A DNA stretch of 64,000 nt, from the NCBI RefSeq assembly GCF_021228235.1, contig NZ_JAJQRG010000001.1:124001-188000 (forward strand), in the 5' to 3' direction. This DNA comes from Pseudophaeobacter flagellatus. Its GTDB lineage: Bacteria; Pseudomonadota; Alphaproteobacteria; Rhodobacterales; Rhodobacteraceae. Shown in pieces: positions 612 through 49,671 of the stretch (positions within the stretch are counted from its first letter, which is position 1; every line of letters starts with the position of its first letter). The notes beneath the pieces were generated by a model, which did no database searches, was not told the origin of the DNA, and worked only from the letters and a program-made list of their open reading frames with translations. A program made the translations under genes and the position numbers.

Positions 612-1476
612 GTTTTGCCCGCAATTCAGAATAGAGATAGGGAACAACGATGGCAAAGACGACAGCCATCATCACCATGGCAGAGCTGGCCGCCTGGCCA
701 ATATCGCCGCGCGAAAACGCCATGGCATACATATAGGTCGCAGGTAGATCAGTGGCATAGCCAGGCCCGCCGCCGGTCAGGGCGACCACCAGATCAAAGC
801 TCTTGATGGCCAGATGCGCCAGTACGATAAAGGCAGACAGGAAGATCGGCGCCATAGAGGGCAGGATGATGGCGGAATAGATCCGCCAACCTGGGATGCC
901 ATCGACCTGGGCCGCCTTGATGATCTCGCCATCGACGCTGCGCAGGCCTGCTAGAAACAGCGCCATCACAAAGCCCGAGGCCTGCCAGACGCCGGCAACC
1001 ACCACCGCATAGATCGCCATGTCAGGATCAATGATCCAGCTAAAGCGAAAGCTGTCAAACCCCCAGCCGCGCACCATGGCCTCCAACCCTAGGCCGGGAT
1101 TCATGATCCATTTCCAGGCGGTGCCGGTCACGATCATCGAAAGCGCCATGGGATAGAGGTAGATGGTGCGCAGCACCCCTTCGATGCGGATGCGCTGATC
1201 CAGCAGGATCGCCAGCCCCAGCCCCAACAGCATGGAGATGCCGATAAAGAGGCTGCCAAACAGGAACAGATTGTCCATCGCAGTATCCCAGCGCGGCGCC
1301 GCCAGCAGGCGCTTGTACTGGATCAGCCCGTGCAGATCATATCTGGGCAGCAGTTTAGATCGGGTCAGCGAAATCCAGGCGGTCCAGCCGATAAAGCCGT
1401 ACACAAAGATAAGGATCGCCACAAAAGAGGGGGCCAGAACCATCTTGGGGATCTGGCGTTCCAACCATGCATGCAT
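604..1476 (-). CDS. Sugar ABC transporter permease (MalF-type)
   Basis: First permease subunit of the same carbohydrate importer, 290 residues, a normal length for the family. It begins MHAWLERQIPKMVLAPSF, has about six hydrophobic segments, and carries the cytoplasmic EAA loop GEIIKAAQVDGIPGWRIY near residues 185-202. It lies between the binding-protein gene (84 bases upstream, with a stem-loop between them) and the second permease gene (8-base overlap). It should heterodimerise with the second permease to form the membrane channel. Confidence 0.88.
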   Translation of the reverse strand: MHAWLERQIPKMVLAPSFVAILIFVYGFIGWTAWISLTRSKLLPRYDLHGLIQYKRLLAAPRWDTAMDNLFLFGSLFIGISMLLGLGLAILLDQRIRIEGVLRTIYLYPMALSMIVTGTAWKWIMNPGLGLEAMVRGWGFDSFRFSWIIDPDMAIYAVVVAGVWQASGFVMALFLAGLRSVDGEIIKAAQVDGIPGWRIYSAIILPSMAPIFLSAFIVLAHLAIKSFDLVVALTGGGPGYATDLPATYMYAMAFSRGDIGQAASSAMVMMAVVFAIVVPYLYSELRAKHD

Positions 1477-35589: not shown

Positions 35590-35664
35590 TGGAGCGGGCG
35601 AGGCGATTCGAACGCCCGACCCTAACCTTGGCAAGGTTATGCTCTACCCCTGAGCTACGCCCGC
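35590..35664 (-). tRNA. tRNA-Gly (anticodon GCC), copy 1
   Basis: 75 bases with encoded CCA. Acceptor GCGGGCG/CGCCCGC, anticodon loop TTGCCAA (GCC), T arm CGGGC-GTTCGAA-T..., discriminator T. Identical to copies 2 and 3, and part of a 279-base tandem duplication with copy 2. Confidence 0.97.
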
Positions 35665-35868: not shown

Positions 35869-35943
35869 TGGAGCGGGCGAGGCGATTCGAACGCCCGACC
35901 CTAACCTTGGCAAGGTTATGCTCTACCCCTGAGCTACGCCCGC
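35869..35943 (-). tRNA. tRNA-Gly (anticodon GCC), copy 2
   Basis: Identical in sequence to copy 1 and exactly 279 bases from it. About 60 bases of 5' flank and the 3' terminator are nearly the same too, so each copy is probably its own transcription unit. The restriction-modification genes begin 76 bases upstream of it. Confidence 0.97.
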
Positions 35944-38075: not shown

Positions 38076-38150
38076 TGGAGCGGGCGAGGCGATTCGAACG
38101 CCCGACCCTAACCTTGGCAAGGTTATGCTCTACCCCTGAGCTACGCCCGC
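38076..38150 (-). tRNA. tRNA-Gly (anticodon GCC), copy 3
   Basis: Same 75-base tRNA sequence as copies 1 and 2, 2.2 kb away on the other side of the restriction-modification genes. Its flanks differ after about 10 bases, so it is not part of the 279-base tandem unit. Confidence 0.97.
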
Positions 38151-46386: not shown

Positions 46387-46430
46387 ACATAAAACGGCGG
46401 CGCCCAGGGAGGAGGAGGGGCACCGCCGTT
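46387..46430 (-). ncRNA. ccsR4: Cuckoo-type RNA hairpin 4 (CcsR4-like), end of array
   Basis: AACGGCGG/CCGCCGTT (46393-46400, 46423-46430) with an inner GCCC/GGGC stem and one C-A mismatch. The loop displays CCTCCTCCC on the minus strand (46407-46415). TTTT follows the stem, so it also acts as the array terminator. Confidence 0.8.
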
Positions 46431-46443
46431 CATTACAACATCA

Positions 46444-46493
46444 GGACCAAGGGAGGAGGAGACCCGGATGCATTCTGGTCCGGCAAAGGCCGG
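46444..46493 (-). ncRNA. ccsR3: Cuckoo-type RNA hairpin 3 (CcsR3-like)
   Basis: GGACCA/TGGTCC arms (46444-46449, 46476-46481) enclose CCTCCTCCC (46451-46459, minus strand); a second small hairpin CCGGC-AAAG-GCCGG lies at 46480-46493, just 5' of it in the transcript. Confidence 0.75.
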
Positions 46494-46502
46494 AATTAGG
46501 GT

Positions 46503-46536
46503 GCGGTGACATCAGGGAGGAGGAGGATGTCACCGC
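46503..46536 (-). ncRNA. ccsR2: Cuckoo-type RNA hairpin 2 (CcsR2-like)
   Basis: An 11-base perfect stem GCGGTGACATC/GATGTCACCGC (46503-46513, 46526-46536) with a 12-base loop holding CCTCCTCCC on the minus strand (46515-46523). Confidence 0.82.
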
Positions 46537-46542
46537 GTAGGA

Positions 46543-46575
46543 CAGGCTCTCTAGGGAGGAGGAGAAAAGAGCCTG
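46543..46575 (-). ncRNA. ccsR1: Cuckoo-type RNA hairpin 1 (CcsR1-like)
   Basis: Stem CAGGCTCT/AGAGCCTG (46543-46550, 46568-46575) with a 17-base loop containing CCTCCTCCC on the minus strand (46554-46562). It begins 8 bases after the DUF1127 stop, so it is co-transcribed with it. Confidence 0.8.
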
Positions 46576-46582
46576 ATCTCTA

Positions 46583-46801
46583 TTAGTTGTTTTCGTATGC
46601 CGCCTGATAGGCGATGCGCTGGATCATCGAACGGTGCAGGCCCAGATCGGCCAGGTCGCGACCGGACAGCGCAGAGAGTTCGTTGTAGGTTTGGCGATAC
46701 AAGCGGTAGCGAGCCAGTTTGGTGCTCAGCGCGTCAAACCAAGCCAAGGGCAGTGCCGCAGAGAGGGCTTTGGACGGGGCGATATGCTGTACGAGGGCCA
46801 T
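46583..46801 (-). CDS. DUF1127 small basic protein (CcaF1-like)
   Basis: 72 residues ending ELSALSGRDLADLGLHRSMIQRIAYQAAYENN; the LS-x2-DL-x-DLG-x2-R-x2-I pattern is the DUF1127 signature. In Rhodobacter sphaeroides the DUF1127 protein encoded before the CcsR RNAs (RSP_6037, CcaF1) binds RNA and affects sRNA levels; the same layout here suggests the same role. Its message continues into four CCUCCUCCC hairpins. Confidence 0.88.
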   Translation of the reverse strand: MALVQHIAPSKALSAALPLAWFDALSTKLARYRLYRQTYNELSALSGRDLADLGLHRSMIQRIAYQAAYENN

Positions 46802-47125
46802 CGGATAGATCCTTGAAACTGGTTATTTGCGTTGTGCCTGTATCGGCGTCTGTTGAGATTAAAATAGCGAATTGCTGCATCTGCACAATCCCCCGTATCG
46901 GCATTTCTGCTATGCAGCATTTGCATGGGTCACCCCTATTCGTTTGTAAACAGACTGTTTTTTGAGCAAACTTATCCAAATCTACTTTCCGCTAGGGAAA
47001 GATTGGCATGGCCTGGTGATGCCTACCCTTGCGGACATCCCCGGTTAAGAGCACTCTCTGGCGCCAGCGATAGGGGCACCGCAGGGTGGTCTTTCGCCCC
47101 TGTAGCAAGAAGAGGCCTGCAACAT
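46802..47125. other. Divergent promoter gap between DUF1127 and mrp
   Basis: 324 gene-free bases with the putative DUF1127 promoter (46861-46888), a TGCTATGCAGCA inverted repeat near 46908-46919, and the leader of mrp. The open frame continuing upstream of mrp is not homologous. Confidence 0.55.
46861..46888 (-). promoter_or_regulatory. Putative promoter of the DUF1127/cuckoo-RNA unit
   Basis: On the minus strand TTGTGC (46888-46883) and TATTTT (46866-46861) are 16 bases apart, giving a leader of about 53 bases. Homologous units use stress sigma factors RpoHI/RpoHII, but the sigma class cannot be fixed from this sequence. Confidence 0.4.
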
Positions 47126-48253
47126 ATGTCGGTGAGTGAGAACCAGATCAAAGAGGCGCAGATCAAAGAGGCACTGGCGCGGCTTGCCCTGCCAGATGGG
47201 GGTACGCTGATCTCGCGGGATATGATCCGTGCCCTGACGCTTCAGCCGGATGCCGCAGAGCCAAGCGCTGTAAAGGTCAGCTTTGTCATCGAGGCGCCAA
47301 GCCCTGAGATCGCCCAACATATGGAGCCATTGCGCCGCGCGGCCGAGGCCGCCGTTCTGGCGCTTGCCGGGGTTGGCTCTGTCTCTGCGGCGCTGACGGC
47401 GCATGGCCCGGCTAGCACCGCGCCGTCCGCTAAGGGGGCGTCGGGTGCCCCAAGTTTCAAGTTCGGTGGCCATGCCAAGCCGCAGGCCGGGCCGATAAAG
47501 CCTGCCGGTGTCGCGCGTATCCTGGCGGTTGCCTCTGGCAAAGGCGGCGTGGGGAAATCCACGGTCAGCGCCAATCTGGCGGTGGCCCTGTCGCGGCAGG
47601 GACGCCGGGTGGGGCTGCTGGATGCTGATATATATGGTCCCAGCCAGCCGCGCATGATGGGAATCACGGGCCGTCCCGGCAGCGCCGATGGCAAGGTGAT
47701 TGAACCCTTGCAGGCGCATGGGGTCACGGTGATGTCGATTGGTCTGATGGTGCCCGAGGATAAGGCGATTGTCTGGCGCGGCCCTATGTTGATGGGGGCG
47801 CTGCAGCAGATGCTGGGCCAGGTGAACTGGGGCGAGCTGGATGTTCTGATTGTGGATCTGCCGCCTGGAACCGGGGATGTGCAGCTGACGCTCTGCACCA
47901 AGAGCGAGCTGAGCGGCGCAATTGTGGTCAGCACCCCGCAGGATGTGGCGCTGATTGATGCGCGAAAAGCCCTGGATATGTTCAAGACGCTCAAGACGCC
48001 GGTTCTGGGGCTGATCGAAAACATGTCATTCTTTACCTGCCCTGATTGCGGCGGGGAGCACCATATCTTTGGCCATGGCGGGGTCGCGGCCGAGGCCAAG
48101 GCGCTTGGCCTGCCTCTGCTGGGGGCTTTGCCAATTGATCTTGAAACCCGGCTGGCCGGGGATGCAGGTCAGCCCGTTGCTGCTGGAGACGGCGCGATTG
48201 CCCAGGCCTATGGGCAGATCGCCAAGGGGCTGATTGCGGGCGGCATGGCCTAG
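47126..48253 (+). CDS. mrp: Mrp/NBP35-type iron-sulfur carrier ATPase
   Basis: 375 residues. An N-terminal DUF59-like (MIP18) domain (about 5-100), a linker, then the deviant Walker A VASGKGGVGKSTVSANLA, DADIYGPSQPRMMG, VDLPPGTGDVQL and the cluster-binding pair Cys-Pro-x-Cys in MSFFTCPDCGGEHHIFG. It assembles or transfers Fe-S clusters, relevant to BioB and ThiC here. The start at 47126 follows AGAAGAGG. Confidence 0.93.
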   Translation: MSVSENQIKEAQIKEALARLALPDGGTLISRDMIRALTLQPDAAEPSAVKVSFVIEAPSPEIAQHMEPLRRAAEAAVLALAGVGSVSAALTAHGPASTAPSAKGASGAPSFKFGGHAKPQAGPIKPAGVARILAVASGKGGVGKSTVSANLAVALSRQGRRVGLLDADIYGPSQPRMMGITGRPGSADGKVIEPLQAHGVTVMSIGLMVPEDKAIVWRGPMLMGALQQMLGQVNWGELDVLIVDLPPGTGDVQLTLCTKSELSGAIVVSTPQDVALIDARKALDMFKTLKTPVLGLIENMSFFTCPDCGGEHHIFGHGGVAAEAKALGLPLLGALPIDLETRLAGDAGQPVAAGDGAIAQAYGQIAKGLIAGGMA

Positions 48254-48574
48254 GCCCTGTTCCGGTCGCTGGATAGCCTTTGCCGATAGGTACGCGGCTG
48301 GGTTTCTCTGCGTGGTGTTTCGGGATTTCGCAGGAGGGTGCGCTTTGTGGTGCCCACCCGTTCATCTGTCTGGAGGGTGGGCTGTTCGGCGATCGTTCCC
48401 TTAGGGTGGCCTGTCCTGATCAGCCGGGCGAGCAGGGGCAGCTTCTGTTCGCAACCAGCAGCTGATCTCGCCCGTTTTGTGACTATACGGGAAATTATGG
48501 GATAAATGGGAAATCATGGGCTGAATACGCGCTACGCCCACCCCGAAGTCGATGAATTAAGAGCGGTGATTCGT

Positions 48575-48611
48575 TTTTCACCCCCGAATCGGTAGGTTCG
48601 CAGGGTGAAAA
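48575..48611. repeat. Long stem-loop downstream of mrp
   Basis: TTTTCACCC/GGGTGAAAA (48575-48583, 48603-48611) with an inner CGAA/TTCG stem. The arms begin with T4 and end with A4, so on the minus strand it looks like a terminator; on the plus strand it has no T tail. Confidence 0.5.
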
Positions 48612-48616
48612 CCTAA

Positions 48617-48637
48617 TTACCCACAGGGTTATGCACA
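48617..48637 (+). promoter_or_regulatory. Pair of DnaA-box-like sites upstream of dcw
   Basis: TTATGCACA (48629-48637) fits the DnaA consensus TTATNCACA exactly; TTACCCACA (48617-48625) has one mismatch. They are 12 bases apart in the same orientation. Confidence 0.5.
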
Positions 48638-48904
48638 GGTAGGGTGCGGAACATTAGTGGAACTCCTTAATGAGGAGGGAAATGCAATTCATATCAATGG
48701 GAATTTATGGGCGTTGTGGGCCGCAGGGTGTGACTTTTTTCACTCTCTACATATGGTGCCTATCTGGATTTGATTAACAATTTGTGCGAATTCACCCATG
48801 ATATTGACCAGGAGTTGCCGCAACTTCTGGGTGGTGAAAGCTATTTGGGCGAAGCTTTTATTCTTTCTGGGTTGCCAGACCATGAATTCCCATAGTATCC
48901 CTTT

Positions 48905-49120
48905 TACATCGGACGCAGTGGAGAGCACATCGGGGCGCCAAAGACCCCAAGCTCATAATAATAAGCAGGTTCATACAGGCCTTCGCTTCTTCCGAACAAC
49001 GAGAGATCCGGCGCGCGGGCGAGCAGACATCCCCCCAGGTGGCGCGCGCAGTCGGACAACCCGCCAAGCGGGAAACAGGAGGCGAGTTGATCAGTGGCAG
49101 CAGATCAACTCGCCTCTTTT
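48905..49120 (+). ncRNA. upsM: UpsM-like 5'-leader sRNA of the dcw cluster
   Basis: A strong terminator 47 bases before mraZ implies a discrete leader RNA. A promoter-like GGTTGC-N17-TAGTAT (48870-48898) would start it near 48905, giving about 216 nt. R. sphaeroides UpsM is a roughly 206-nt, highly abundant sRNA made in the same place by premature termination, then cut by RNase E. Internal hairpins include CCCGC-CAA-GCGGG (49060-49072). Conserved features of RNase P RNA, tmRNA and 6S RNA were looked for and not found. Boundaries are approximate. Confidence 0.65.
49079..49120 (+). terminator. Intrinsic terminator of the mraZ leader
   Basis: A perfect 14-base stem (GAGGCGAGTTGATC, 49079-49092, with its complement at 49103-49116), 10-base loop, then T4. 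The only plausible target is the leader RNA itself, so mraZ and following genes need read-through or another promoter. Confidence 0.9.
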
Positions 49121-49167
49121 AATTTCGGGGAACAGAGCGCGTAAGCGCCGGGATAGAGGGCTGAGAT

Positions 49168-49671
49168 TTGGGCCGCAGGTTCAGAGGCGAAAGCCACCAC
49201 AAGGTGGACACAAAGGGGCGGGTATCCATTCCGGCCTCCTTTCGTCGTGTGATCGAGGCAAGCGATCCCAACTGGAAGTCCGGTGAAAGCCCCGAATTGG
49301 TAATCGTCTACGGCGATCAGCGCCGCAATTACCTGGAATGCTATACGATGGAGGCGATCGAAGAGGTCGACGCCAAAATTGATGCCTTGCCGCGCGGCTC
49401 TATGCAGCGCAAGATGTTGCAGCGCATGTTTCATGGTCAGTCTTTCCCGACAACGGTGGATGAGACCGGCCGCCTGGTGTTGCCTGCCAAGCTGCGCAAC
49501 AAGATCGATCTCGAAAAAGAAGCCTTCTTTATGGCCGCCGGGGATACCTTCCAGATCTGGAAGCCCGAGACCTATGAAGAAGAAGAGCTGGCCCAAACCG
49601 AGAAATGGATGGATGAACTGCCAGAGGGTTTTGACCCGCTGGAGTTCCTAGATAACGCCGGAGGCGCATAG
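49168..49671 (+). CDS. mraZ: MraZ, transcriptional regulator of the dcw cluster
   Basis: 167 residues with two AbrB/SpoVT-like repeats: FRGESHHKVDTKGRVSIPASFR and PTTVDETGRLVLPAKLRN, the DxxGR motifs that contact DNA. MraZ represses its own dcw promoter in E. coli. The start is TTG at 49168 with GAGGG 7 bases ahead; no ATG is available before the conserved N-terminus. A rare start plus an upstream terminator suggests low expression. Confidence 0.95.
   Translation: MGRRFRGESHHKVDTKGRVSIPASFRRVIEASDPNWKSGESPELVIVYGDQRRNYLECYTMEAIEEVDAKIDALPRGSMQRKMLQRMFHGQSFPTTVDETGRLVLPAKLRNKIDLEKEAFFMAAGDTFQIWKPETYEEEELAQTEKWMDELPEGFDPLEFLDNAGGA

Follow-up and report, generated by a model that had tools for sequence, protein, structure and literature searches.

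On the minus strand of the window (the whole 64-kb stretch of DNA that was analysed) we found a gene for a small DUF1127 protein followed by an array of hairpins that present one and the same motif in their loops. We consider it likely, judging the best explanation jointly as a whole, that this locus is a DUF1127-cuckoo (CIN1-type) stress-RNA operon, of a kind already known. DUF1127 genes with CcsR-like RNAs have been described as CIN1 loci, in which CcaF1 and RNase E mature the CcsR RNAs (PMC10253847; PMC8625941).

A DUF1127 gene and its hairpin array

The frame passes the PF06568 cut-off, as expected of the short DUF1127 protein of a CIN1 locus, and downstream of it, on the same strand, lie four exact copies of the loop motif CCUCCUCCC, the second feature of such loci (Table 1). 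The sequence-only reading had described this arrangement of a DUF1127 gene and four motif-loop hairpins, and the exact motifs, the Pfam match and the folding given below bear it out. It had also placed the array close behind the gene, which stands, at a distance of 8 bases, which does not: we count 7 between the DUF1127 stop codon and the stem of hairpin 1. The stem plus T4 that it saw at the array end is found, with the T4 after hairpin 4.

Table 1. Features of the DUF1127-hairpin locus, in window coordinates
Feature	Position	Strand	Basis and remarks
Conserved block CATGCAAATGCTGCATAGCAGAAATGC, with box TGCA-N6-GCAT at 46912-46925	46901..46927	-	Congener alignment; proposed LsrB/VtlR-type LysR site
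ATTGTGCAGATGCAGCAA: second TGCA-N6-GCA(A/T) site, 40 bp from the first box, overlapped by the TTG of a -35-like element	46872..46889	-	
-10-like CTATTTT	46861..46867	-	Congener alignment
AAGGA, Shine-Dalgarno-like, of the DUF1127 gene	46810..46814	-	Sequence; putative role
DUF1127 protein, 72 aa, CcaF1-like	46583..46801	-	ORF; Pfam PF06568, 51.3 bits (cut-off 23.3)
CcsR-like RNA unit 1 (hairpins 1 and 2)	46498..46579	-	RF02791 match, 36.3 bits, E 3.5e-7 (permissive search)
Hairpin 1, loop with CUCCUCCUCCCU	46543..46575	-	Folding, alignment
Hairpin 2	46503..46536	-	Folding, alignment
Spacer hairpin UCCGGCCUUUGCCGGA, short, without loop motif, between the units	46479..46494	-	Folding; sequence variable among congeners
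CcsR-like RNA unit 2 (hairpins 3 and 4)	46389..46475	-	RF02791 match, 34.2 bits, E 1.5e-6 (permissive search)
Hairpin 3, weakest stem, best covariation	46439..46470	-	Folding, alignment
Hairpin 4 and T4, loop motif and likely intrinsic terminator combined	46391..46430	-	Sequence, alignment

Exact copies of CCTCCTCCC lie on the minus strand at 46554-46562, 46515-46523, 46451-46459 and 46407-46415. The 4.29-Mb genome holds 15 such copies, four of them in this array within about 160 bases; the 11 copies elsewhere lead one to expect about 0.0002 per 165-nt strand stretch. For the 205-nt region the folding energy is -83.8 kcal/mol; shuffles average -51.6 (sd 4.25), which gives z -7.6, and none of 200 folded as well. 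When 57-nt windows were folded, all nine motif bases were unpaired in hairpins 1, 2 and 4, and six of nine in hairpin 3.

The stems are preserved among congeners while their sequences change. Hairpin 3 (9 distinct congener rows, tool alignment) had 89 of 90 cells paired and 4 pairs changed on both sides, a covariation score that none of 500 shuffles reached; hairpin 4 (8 rows, tool alignment) had 104/104 cells paired and one both-side change, with its covariation reached by 10/500 shuffles. For hairpin 1 (8 rows, tool alignment) 96.4% of 55 cells were paired and no covariation was detected (441 of 500 shuffles scored as high), because row L019 was gapped out of register. With the arms of all four hairpins aligned by hand, 457 of 458 cells were standard pairs, and both-side changes appeared in hairpins 1, 3 and 4. 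Thus the earlier view that the loops are constant and the stems variable holds, with stems that stay paired. A 5-bp enclosing stem was present in 807 of 809 distinct clustered motif windows from related loci; since such stems were also frequent in controls (299/400 with shuffled flanks, 19/22 isolated motifs), the median stem of 15 bp is the better sign.

A default Rfam search of the window did not match the array and returned three tRNAs only, at 35593-35664, 35872-35943 and 38079-38150 (minus strand, 65.4 bits each). The covariance-model check proposed in the sequence-only reading succeeded in part: under permissive settings CcsR1 (RF02791) and ar14 (RF02344) both match, each below its curated cut-off. 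Neither unit reaches the RF02791 gathering cut-off of 65.3, so we do not file the array under that family; RF02344 gave 43.9 bits over 46483-46581 and 31.0 bits, below its gathering cut-off of 58.8, and the three motif hairpins of ar14 are not found here, where each unit has two. Because each CcsR1 match spans two hairpins, we read the array as two CcsR-like RNAs. The four single-hairpin members proposed earlier are ruled out by these pair-spanning matches and by the hairpin counts in the family, which range from 3 to 16 per array and are even in 79 of 108 (script count on distinct family arrays away from the locus end). The RF02791 search of the own genome gave two matches, which we take, though not from listed positions, to be the two array units.

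Matches to RF02791 at E<=1e-3 occurred in 163 of 198 family genomes and in 1 of 14 control genomes. The cut-off was missed by 154 of the 163, the present genome among them; the Rfam CcsR1 cut-off thus admits just 9 of the 198 family genomes. Homologues of the DUF1127 protein turned up in 30 of 60 relatives searched, and a DUF1127 match in 10 of 11 congeners. The four-hairpin array directly follows a close DUF1127 match in 11 of the 12 genus genomes (the own and 11 others), and the twelfth, G004 (86% complete), preserves, where a contig ends, hairpin 4 and a portion of hairpin 3. The conservation on which the sequence-only reading had staked its proposal is therefore there, with arrays in all 11 same-genus loci that have a DUF1127 match. 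By script count, arrays at L039 (in G086), L170, L029, L155 and L182 reach 14-16 hairpins; at L039 successive pairs are 114-115 bases apart, which suggests recent unit duplication.

The kinship with the R. sphaeroides CcsR/DUF1127 (CIN1) locus that had been proposed is upheld by the PF06568 match and the two sub-threshold CcsR1 matches. Like CcaF1-CcsR1-4 (RSP_6037), the present locus has a small DUF1127 gene, then paired CCUCCUCCC-loop hairpins and a probable end terminator, and the CcsR1 model matches each hairpin pair; unlike it, it has two RNA units rather than four, with scores below the CcsR1 cut-off. Sinorhizobium NfeR1 (alpha-r14) also carries CCUCCUCCC loops on variable stems, with TGCA-N6-GCAT similarly placed upstream of its promoter, but it has three hairpins and its own transcript, whereas two hairpins per unit are found here and RF02344 stays below cut-off. 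We know of no DUF1127 gene on the NfeR1 transcript. The ultraconserved CCUCCUCCC of NfeR1 lies in all three hairpins, and mRNA silencing through these seeds has been reported (PMC10746234).

Promoter boxes and a candidate LysR regulator

Alignment of 11 congeneric upstream regions revealed a block CATGCAAATGCTGCATAGC, about 40 bases on ATTGTGCA-NN-YGCAGCA, and then CTATTTT, which is exact in 9 of the 11 loci and reads CTATNTT in 10. The TGCA-N6-GCAT box is present in all 11, and its surrounding block is nearly as constant. The promoter had earlier been placed at 46861-46888, and its -35-like and -10-like elements indeed fall at 46861-46889. In the NfeR1 promoter an LsrB site TGCA-N6-GCAT is reported to span -72 to -60 (PMC10746234); if transcription began some seven bases past CTATTTT, the present box would by our own count occupy about -71 to -58.

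We counted box spacings in 60 loci (L009-L068) with 54 array rows, four arrays being present under two ids (L024/L057, L025/L044, L033/L052 and L028/L063). TGCA-N6-GCAT occurred within 650 bases upstream in 40 of the 54 rows, a number that includes the 11 congeneric loci used to derive the motif, and the N5 spacing in 26; the other spacings N2, 3, 4, 7, 8, 9 and 10 gave 1, 2, 1, 1, 1, 3 and 0; the exact N6 box was absent in the other 14. The exact two-part pattern of block and -35-like element was found in only 57 of 198 family genomes (reversed control, 0) and in at least 118 stretches of the genome collection. We inspected 110 loci, 80 from among the matches listed and 30 from the family search, between which species may overlap. 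Their 111 pattern matches were 42 (54 matches) or 43 (57 matches) bases long, with 36-46 allowed. An array, loosely defined as at least three TCCTCC-type motifs in the next 1.3 kb, followed in 103 of the 111; five had a DUF1127 call and no array, and three had less than 220 bases of sequence left. Part of the block's upstream half (ATGC-NNN-TGCT, ahead of GCAT) lay outside the search pattern and was nonetheless 71-100% conserved at most positions. At six loci (L175, L191, L165, L206, L212 and L279) the two-part promoter precedes cuckoo-type hairpins with no DUF1127 gene recognised by our crude pattern; these are possible stand-alone cuckoo RNAs.

Is there a regulator for such boxes? A scan of 30 trxB loci from class relatives found a LysR frame, by pattern, in only two. 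The frame at L105, rather than a reference LsrB, served as our query, and we take it, by its trxB linkage, to be of the LsrB/VtlR type. Its counterpart in the own genome (G000:C22; PF00126, 83.4 bits; PF03466, 110.7 bits) shows 45% identity at 275.7 bits, the next best match scoring 115.5. Unlike in rhizobia, this gene is not beside trxB, and we therefore call it LsrB/VtlR-like only; the own trxB lies between Lrp/AsnC-like and cyclase-like frames (named by eye). Directly downstream of the LysR gene are the same kind of box and, after it, a Sor-type RNA, which passes the RF02784 (SorX) cut-off (51.2 bits; cut-off 46.6) and matches RF02651 (SorY) at 55.2, below 111. Sor RNAs are AbcR-like, so that the LysR gene has an AbcR-type neighbour, as in Brucella.

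At E<=1e-60 the LysR gene is single-copy in 192 of 198 family genomes. Among the best 30 of these 192 loci, the Sor core CCTCCCTGTTG lies within 500 bases downstream in 28 and TGCA-N6-GCAT in 20, with 0-1 for each of six control spacings. The LysR match was weak (worse than 1e-125) or missing in 14 of 35 genomes without RF02791 and 6 of 163 with it (Fisher p 4e-8, hand-counted), a co-occurrence to which we give no weight because phylogeny confounds it.

These observations recall the Brucella/Agrobacterium VtlR circuit, which combines AbcR RNAs with DUF1127 or small-protein genes. Shared with it are the type of LysR gene, the AbcR-like RNA at its side and, as a prediction, the DUF1127 gene among the targets; Brucella VtlR is reported to activate AbcR2 and three DUF1127 genes, and an AbcR RNA adjoins the VtlR gene (PMC12595884). 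The present case differs in that cuckoo RNAs go with the DUF1127 gene, the RNA adjoining the LysR gene is a SorX/SorY match and the LysR gene itself is unlinked to trxB. LsrB has been called unique to Rhizobiales (PMC11975290), while VtlR/LsrB has elsewhere been placed in many Alphaproteobacteria, with a box that may be Rhizobiales-specific (PMC7486931). The promoter suggests an LsrB/VtlR-type LysR regulator besides, or in place of, RpoH. We thus hypothesize that an activator of this type most likely switches on the operon, and that it would also control the SorX/SorY (AbcR-like) RNA adjoining its own gene.

The RNAs and their mechanism could be as proposed here with transcription driven purely by RpoHI/RpoHII (heat, singlet oxygen), in which case the TGCA boxes would be part of an extended promoter or the site of another factor. 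CCMATNT, which we take to be an RpoH-like -10 element, is found in 20 of 104 distinct family promoters. Reports from R. sphaeroides point the same way, with the DUF1127-CcsR operon driven by RpoHI/RpoHII (PMC10253847) and CcsR1-4, SorX and SorY under RpoE, RpoHI and RpoHII (PMC8307010). However, the present operon differs from that of R. sphaeroides in its -10 CTATTTT and LsrB/VtlR-type boxes: the genus -10 is CTATNTT in 10/11 loci, two boxes about 40 bp apart lie upstream of and over the -35, they match published LsrB/VtlR sites when compared by eye (PMC10746234; PMC12595884; PMC7486931), and such boxes are found again at the LysR-adjacent Sor RNA. Purely RpoH-driven transcription is thus, in our judgement, rather unlikely. 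The LysR circuit that we favour is an extension of the published picture, not a contradiction, as both LysR and RpoH inputs may act.

Proposed action and a predicted target

Our model has a single minus-strand transcript that would begin some 50-55 bases before the DUF1127 gene and finish with hairpin 4. If the R. sphaeroides case is a guide, this transcript would be processed by RNase E and the DUF1127 protein into the DUF1127 mRNA and two two-hairpin CcsR-like RNAs. The loop motif is anti-Shine-Dalgarno in character, as the sequence-only reading had noted, and the loops (UCUCCUCCUCCC), as redundant seeds of this type, would block translation by base-pairing with purine-rich ribosome sites. 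Among the predicted targets a TAT gene ranks first; its GGAGGAGGAG would pair over 10-11 bases.

A search of the own genome for GGAGGAGGAG-N3..9-ATG, which covered ATG starts, gave two matches only, one antisense to the array and one before the gene of a 63-aa TAT protein, where GGAGGAGGAG is the Shine-Dalgarno sequence and is complementary to the array loops over those 10-11 bases. The protein scores 40.2 bits against TIGR02811 (formate dehydrogenase region TAT target), below the cut-off of 48.45. Its gene is followed by the frame of a molybdopterin oxidoreductase (PF00384, 142.8 bits) and preceded by one of the nitrate-reductase-delta/TorD kind (PF02613, 103.2 bits), neighbours that one would expect in a formate dehydrogenase operon. 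Eleven of the 12 genus genomes share GGAGGAGGAGTTCACATG exactly, G006 carrying GGGGGAGGAGTTCACATG, and 18 bases at this site are identical in 11/12 while the upstream bases vary. Loop-site pairing was -21.0 to -24.7 kcal/mol in the 11 genus sites scored, the twelfth (L367) being read by eye. The long complement is not kept at seven homologue loci beyond the genus, two of which scored -15.1 and -14.2 and five of which had a shorter complement or none. In the own genome the pattern is no commoner than its reversed control (2 vs 2; 37 vs 10 in 12 genomes), so that the argument for this target rests on position and conservation, not number.

Other candidates were set aside. In the own genome the 9-base GGGAGGAGG also stands before two frames that are 39 and 21 codons long; a LivF-like frame has GGGAGGAGG before its ATG in G007, G009 and G011 only; and GGGAGGAGGCCTATG, present in five genomes, is followed in the two genomes inspected by nothing longer than frames of 33 and 35 codons.

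The GGAGGAGGAG of the TAT gene might be merely a conserved strong ribosome site, since Shine-Dalgarno sequences are by nature complementary to CCUCC, the own genome shows no excess over the reversed control, and the site is shorter or absent beyond the genus. Yet it is the sole ATG-proximal GGAGGAGGAG site in the own genome besides the array, a loop would pair with it over 10-11 bases where 16S CCUCC pairs over five, and the 18-base identity in 11/12 genomes stands against variable upstream bases; we doubt this reading while taking it seriously. The loops could also be decoys without specific mRNA targets, either mimics of the 16S 3' end that titrate Shine-Dalgarno-binding factors or sites that titrate the DUF1127 protein. 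Such a role would suit arrays that repeat one loop so many times (3-16 hairpins each by script), and CcaF1 is reported to bind RNA (PMC12501420), but the related NfeR1 represses ntrB via seed pairing, an effect abolished by mutating three seeds (PMC10746234), and the 10-11 base target match is conserved in the genus. Decoy action is in our view improbable, and 16S rRNA mimicry, while possible, is less economical than pairing to ribosome sites. Were the plus strand the functional RNA, its complement would display GGGAGGAGG loops whose GGA motifs could act as a CsrA sponge. However, folding of the 809 motif windows favoured the minus-strand sense in 533 and the complement in 271 (5 ties), the wobble pairs agree with the minus strand, and promoter, DUF1127 gene and terminator are all on that strand; folding and wobble pairs rule out a CsrB-like plus-strand sponge, and we give a plus-strand function almost no credence.

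Keeping to minus-strand RNAs with anti-Shine-Dalgarno seeds, we propose for the Rhodobacteraceae as a whole that one LsrB/VtlR-type LysR activator, whose gene adjoins a SorX/SorY-AbcR RNA of its own, acts through twin TGCA-N6-GCAT sites to switch on both this RNA and the DUF1127-cuckoo operon, and that in this genus the loops silence a formate-dehydrogenase-type operon, a proposal whose chances we consider evenly balanced. It joins LsrB/VtlR, the SorX/SorY RNAs and the DUF1127-CcsR RNAs in one testable circuit, names a likely activator for the RNA class matched in those 163 of 198 family genomes and offers one sharply conserved predicted target site for testing. If it is true, the LysR circuit of rhizobia and Brucella would have an older origin and a wider range than has been stated, CcsR and SorY, stress RNAs of R. 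sphaeroides, would belong to one LysR regulon, and cuckoo loops in the genus would tie directly to C1 metabolism. A reported CcsR effect on R. sphaeroides C1 metabolism (PMC8625941) fits a formate target. Neither control of CcsR or of a Rhodobacteraceae DUF1127 gene by a LysR protein nor formate dehydrogenase as a CcsR target was found in the literature searched, a search whose reach excluded most subscription and core papers and which is therefore no proof of novelty.

Neighbouring genes and other copies of the loop motif

Divergent from the array is an Mrp/NUBPL-type P-loop ATPase gene (46925-48253, plus strand; PF10609, 324.4 bits), whose true start is probably near 47126 because the longest frame begins at the edge of the conserved promoter block. 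An MraZ gene (PF02381) follows at 49168-49671 on the plus strand. In R. sphaeroides the UpsM RNA comes from the division-cluster leader (PMC8625941); here, upstream of mraZ, no Rfam match was found at E<=0.1 in 48250-49250.

When the 11 other genomic copies of CCTCCTCCC were folded in 57-nt windows, three (C12:477617, C1:399805 and C23:296082) had an enclosing stem with the whole nine-base motif left unpaired within it; in the remaining copies the motif was partly paired or stemless. The C23:296082 copy lies inside a long coding frame. The C12:477617 copy (L405, about 945-1020, minus strand) forms a terminator-like hairpin of -41.0 kcal/mol with the whole CCUCCUCCC in its loop, in the leader of an NMT1-like nitrate-type transporter gene (PF13379, tested on the L088 piece). 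A like leader is present in 4 of 11 congeners (G002, G007, G008 and G011), at about 1635-1710 in L086, L088 and L089 and with a changed motif in L087; if transcription terminates there, the leader could release a cuckoo-like RNA. At C1:399805 (L006, about 1470-1575) a hairpin that leaves all nine CCUCCUCCC bases unpaired is flanked by the end of a phasin-like frame on one side and a terminator-like stem on the other; it is a possible 3'-UTR anti-Shine-Dalgarno RNA. Both the C12:477617 and C1:399805 hairpins may be further sources of anti-Shine-Dalgarno loops.
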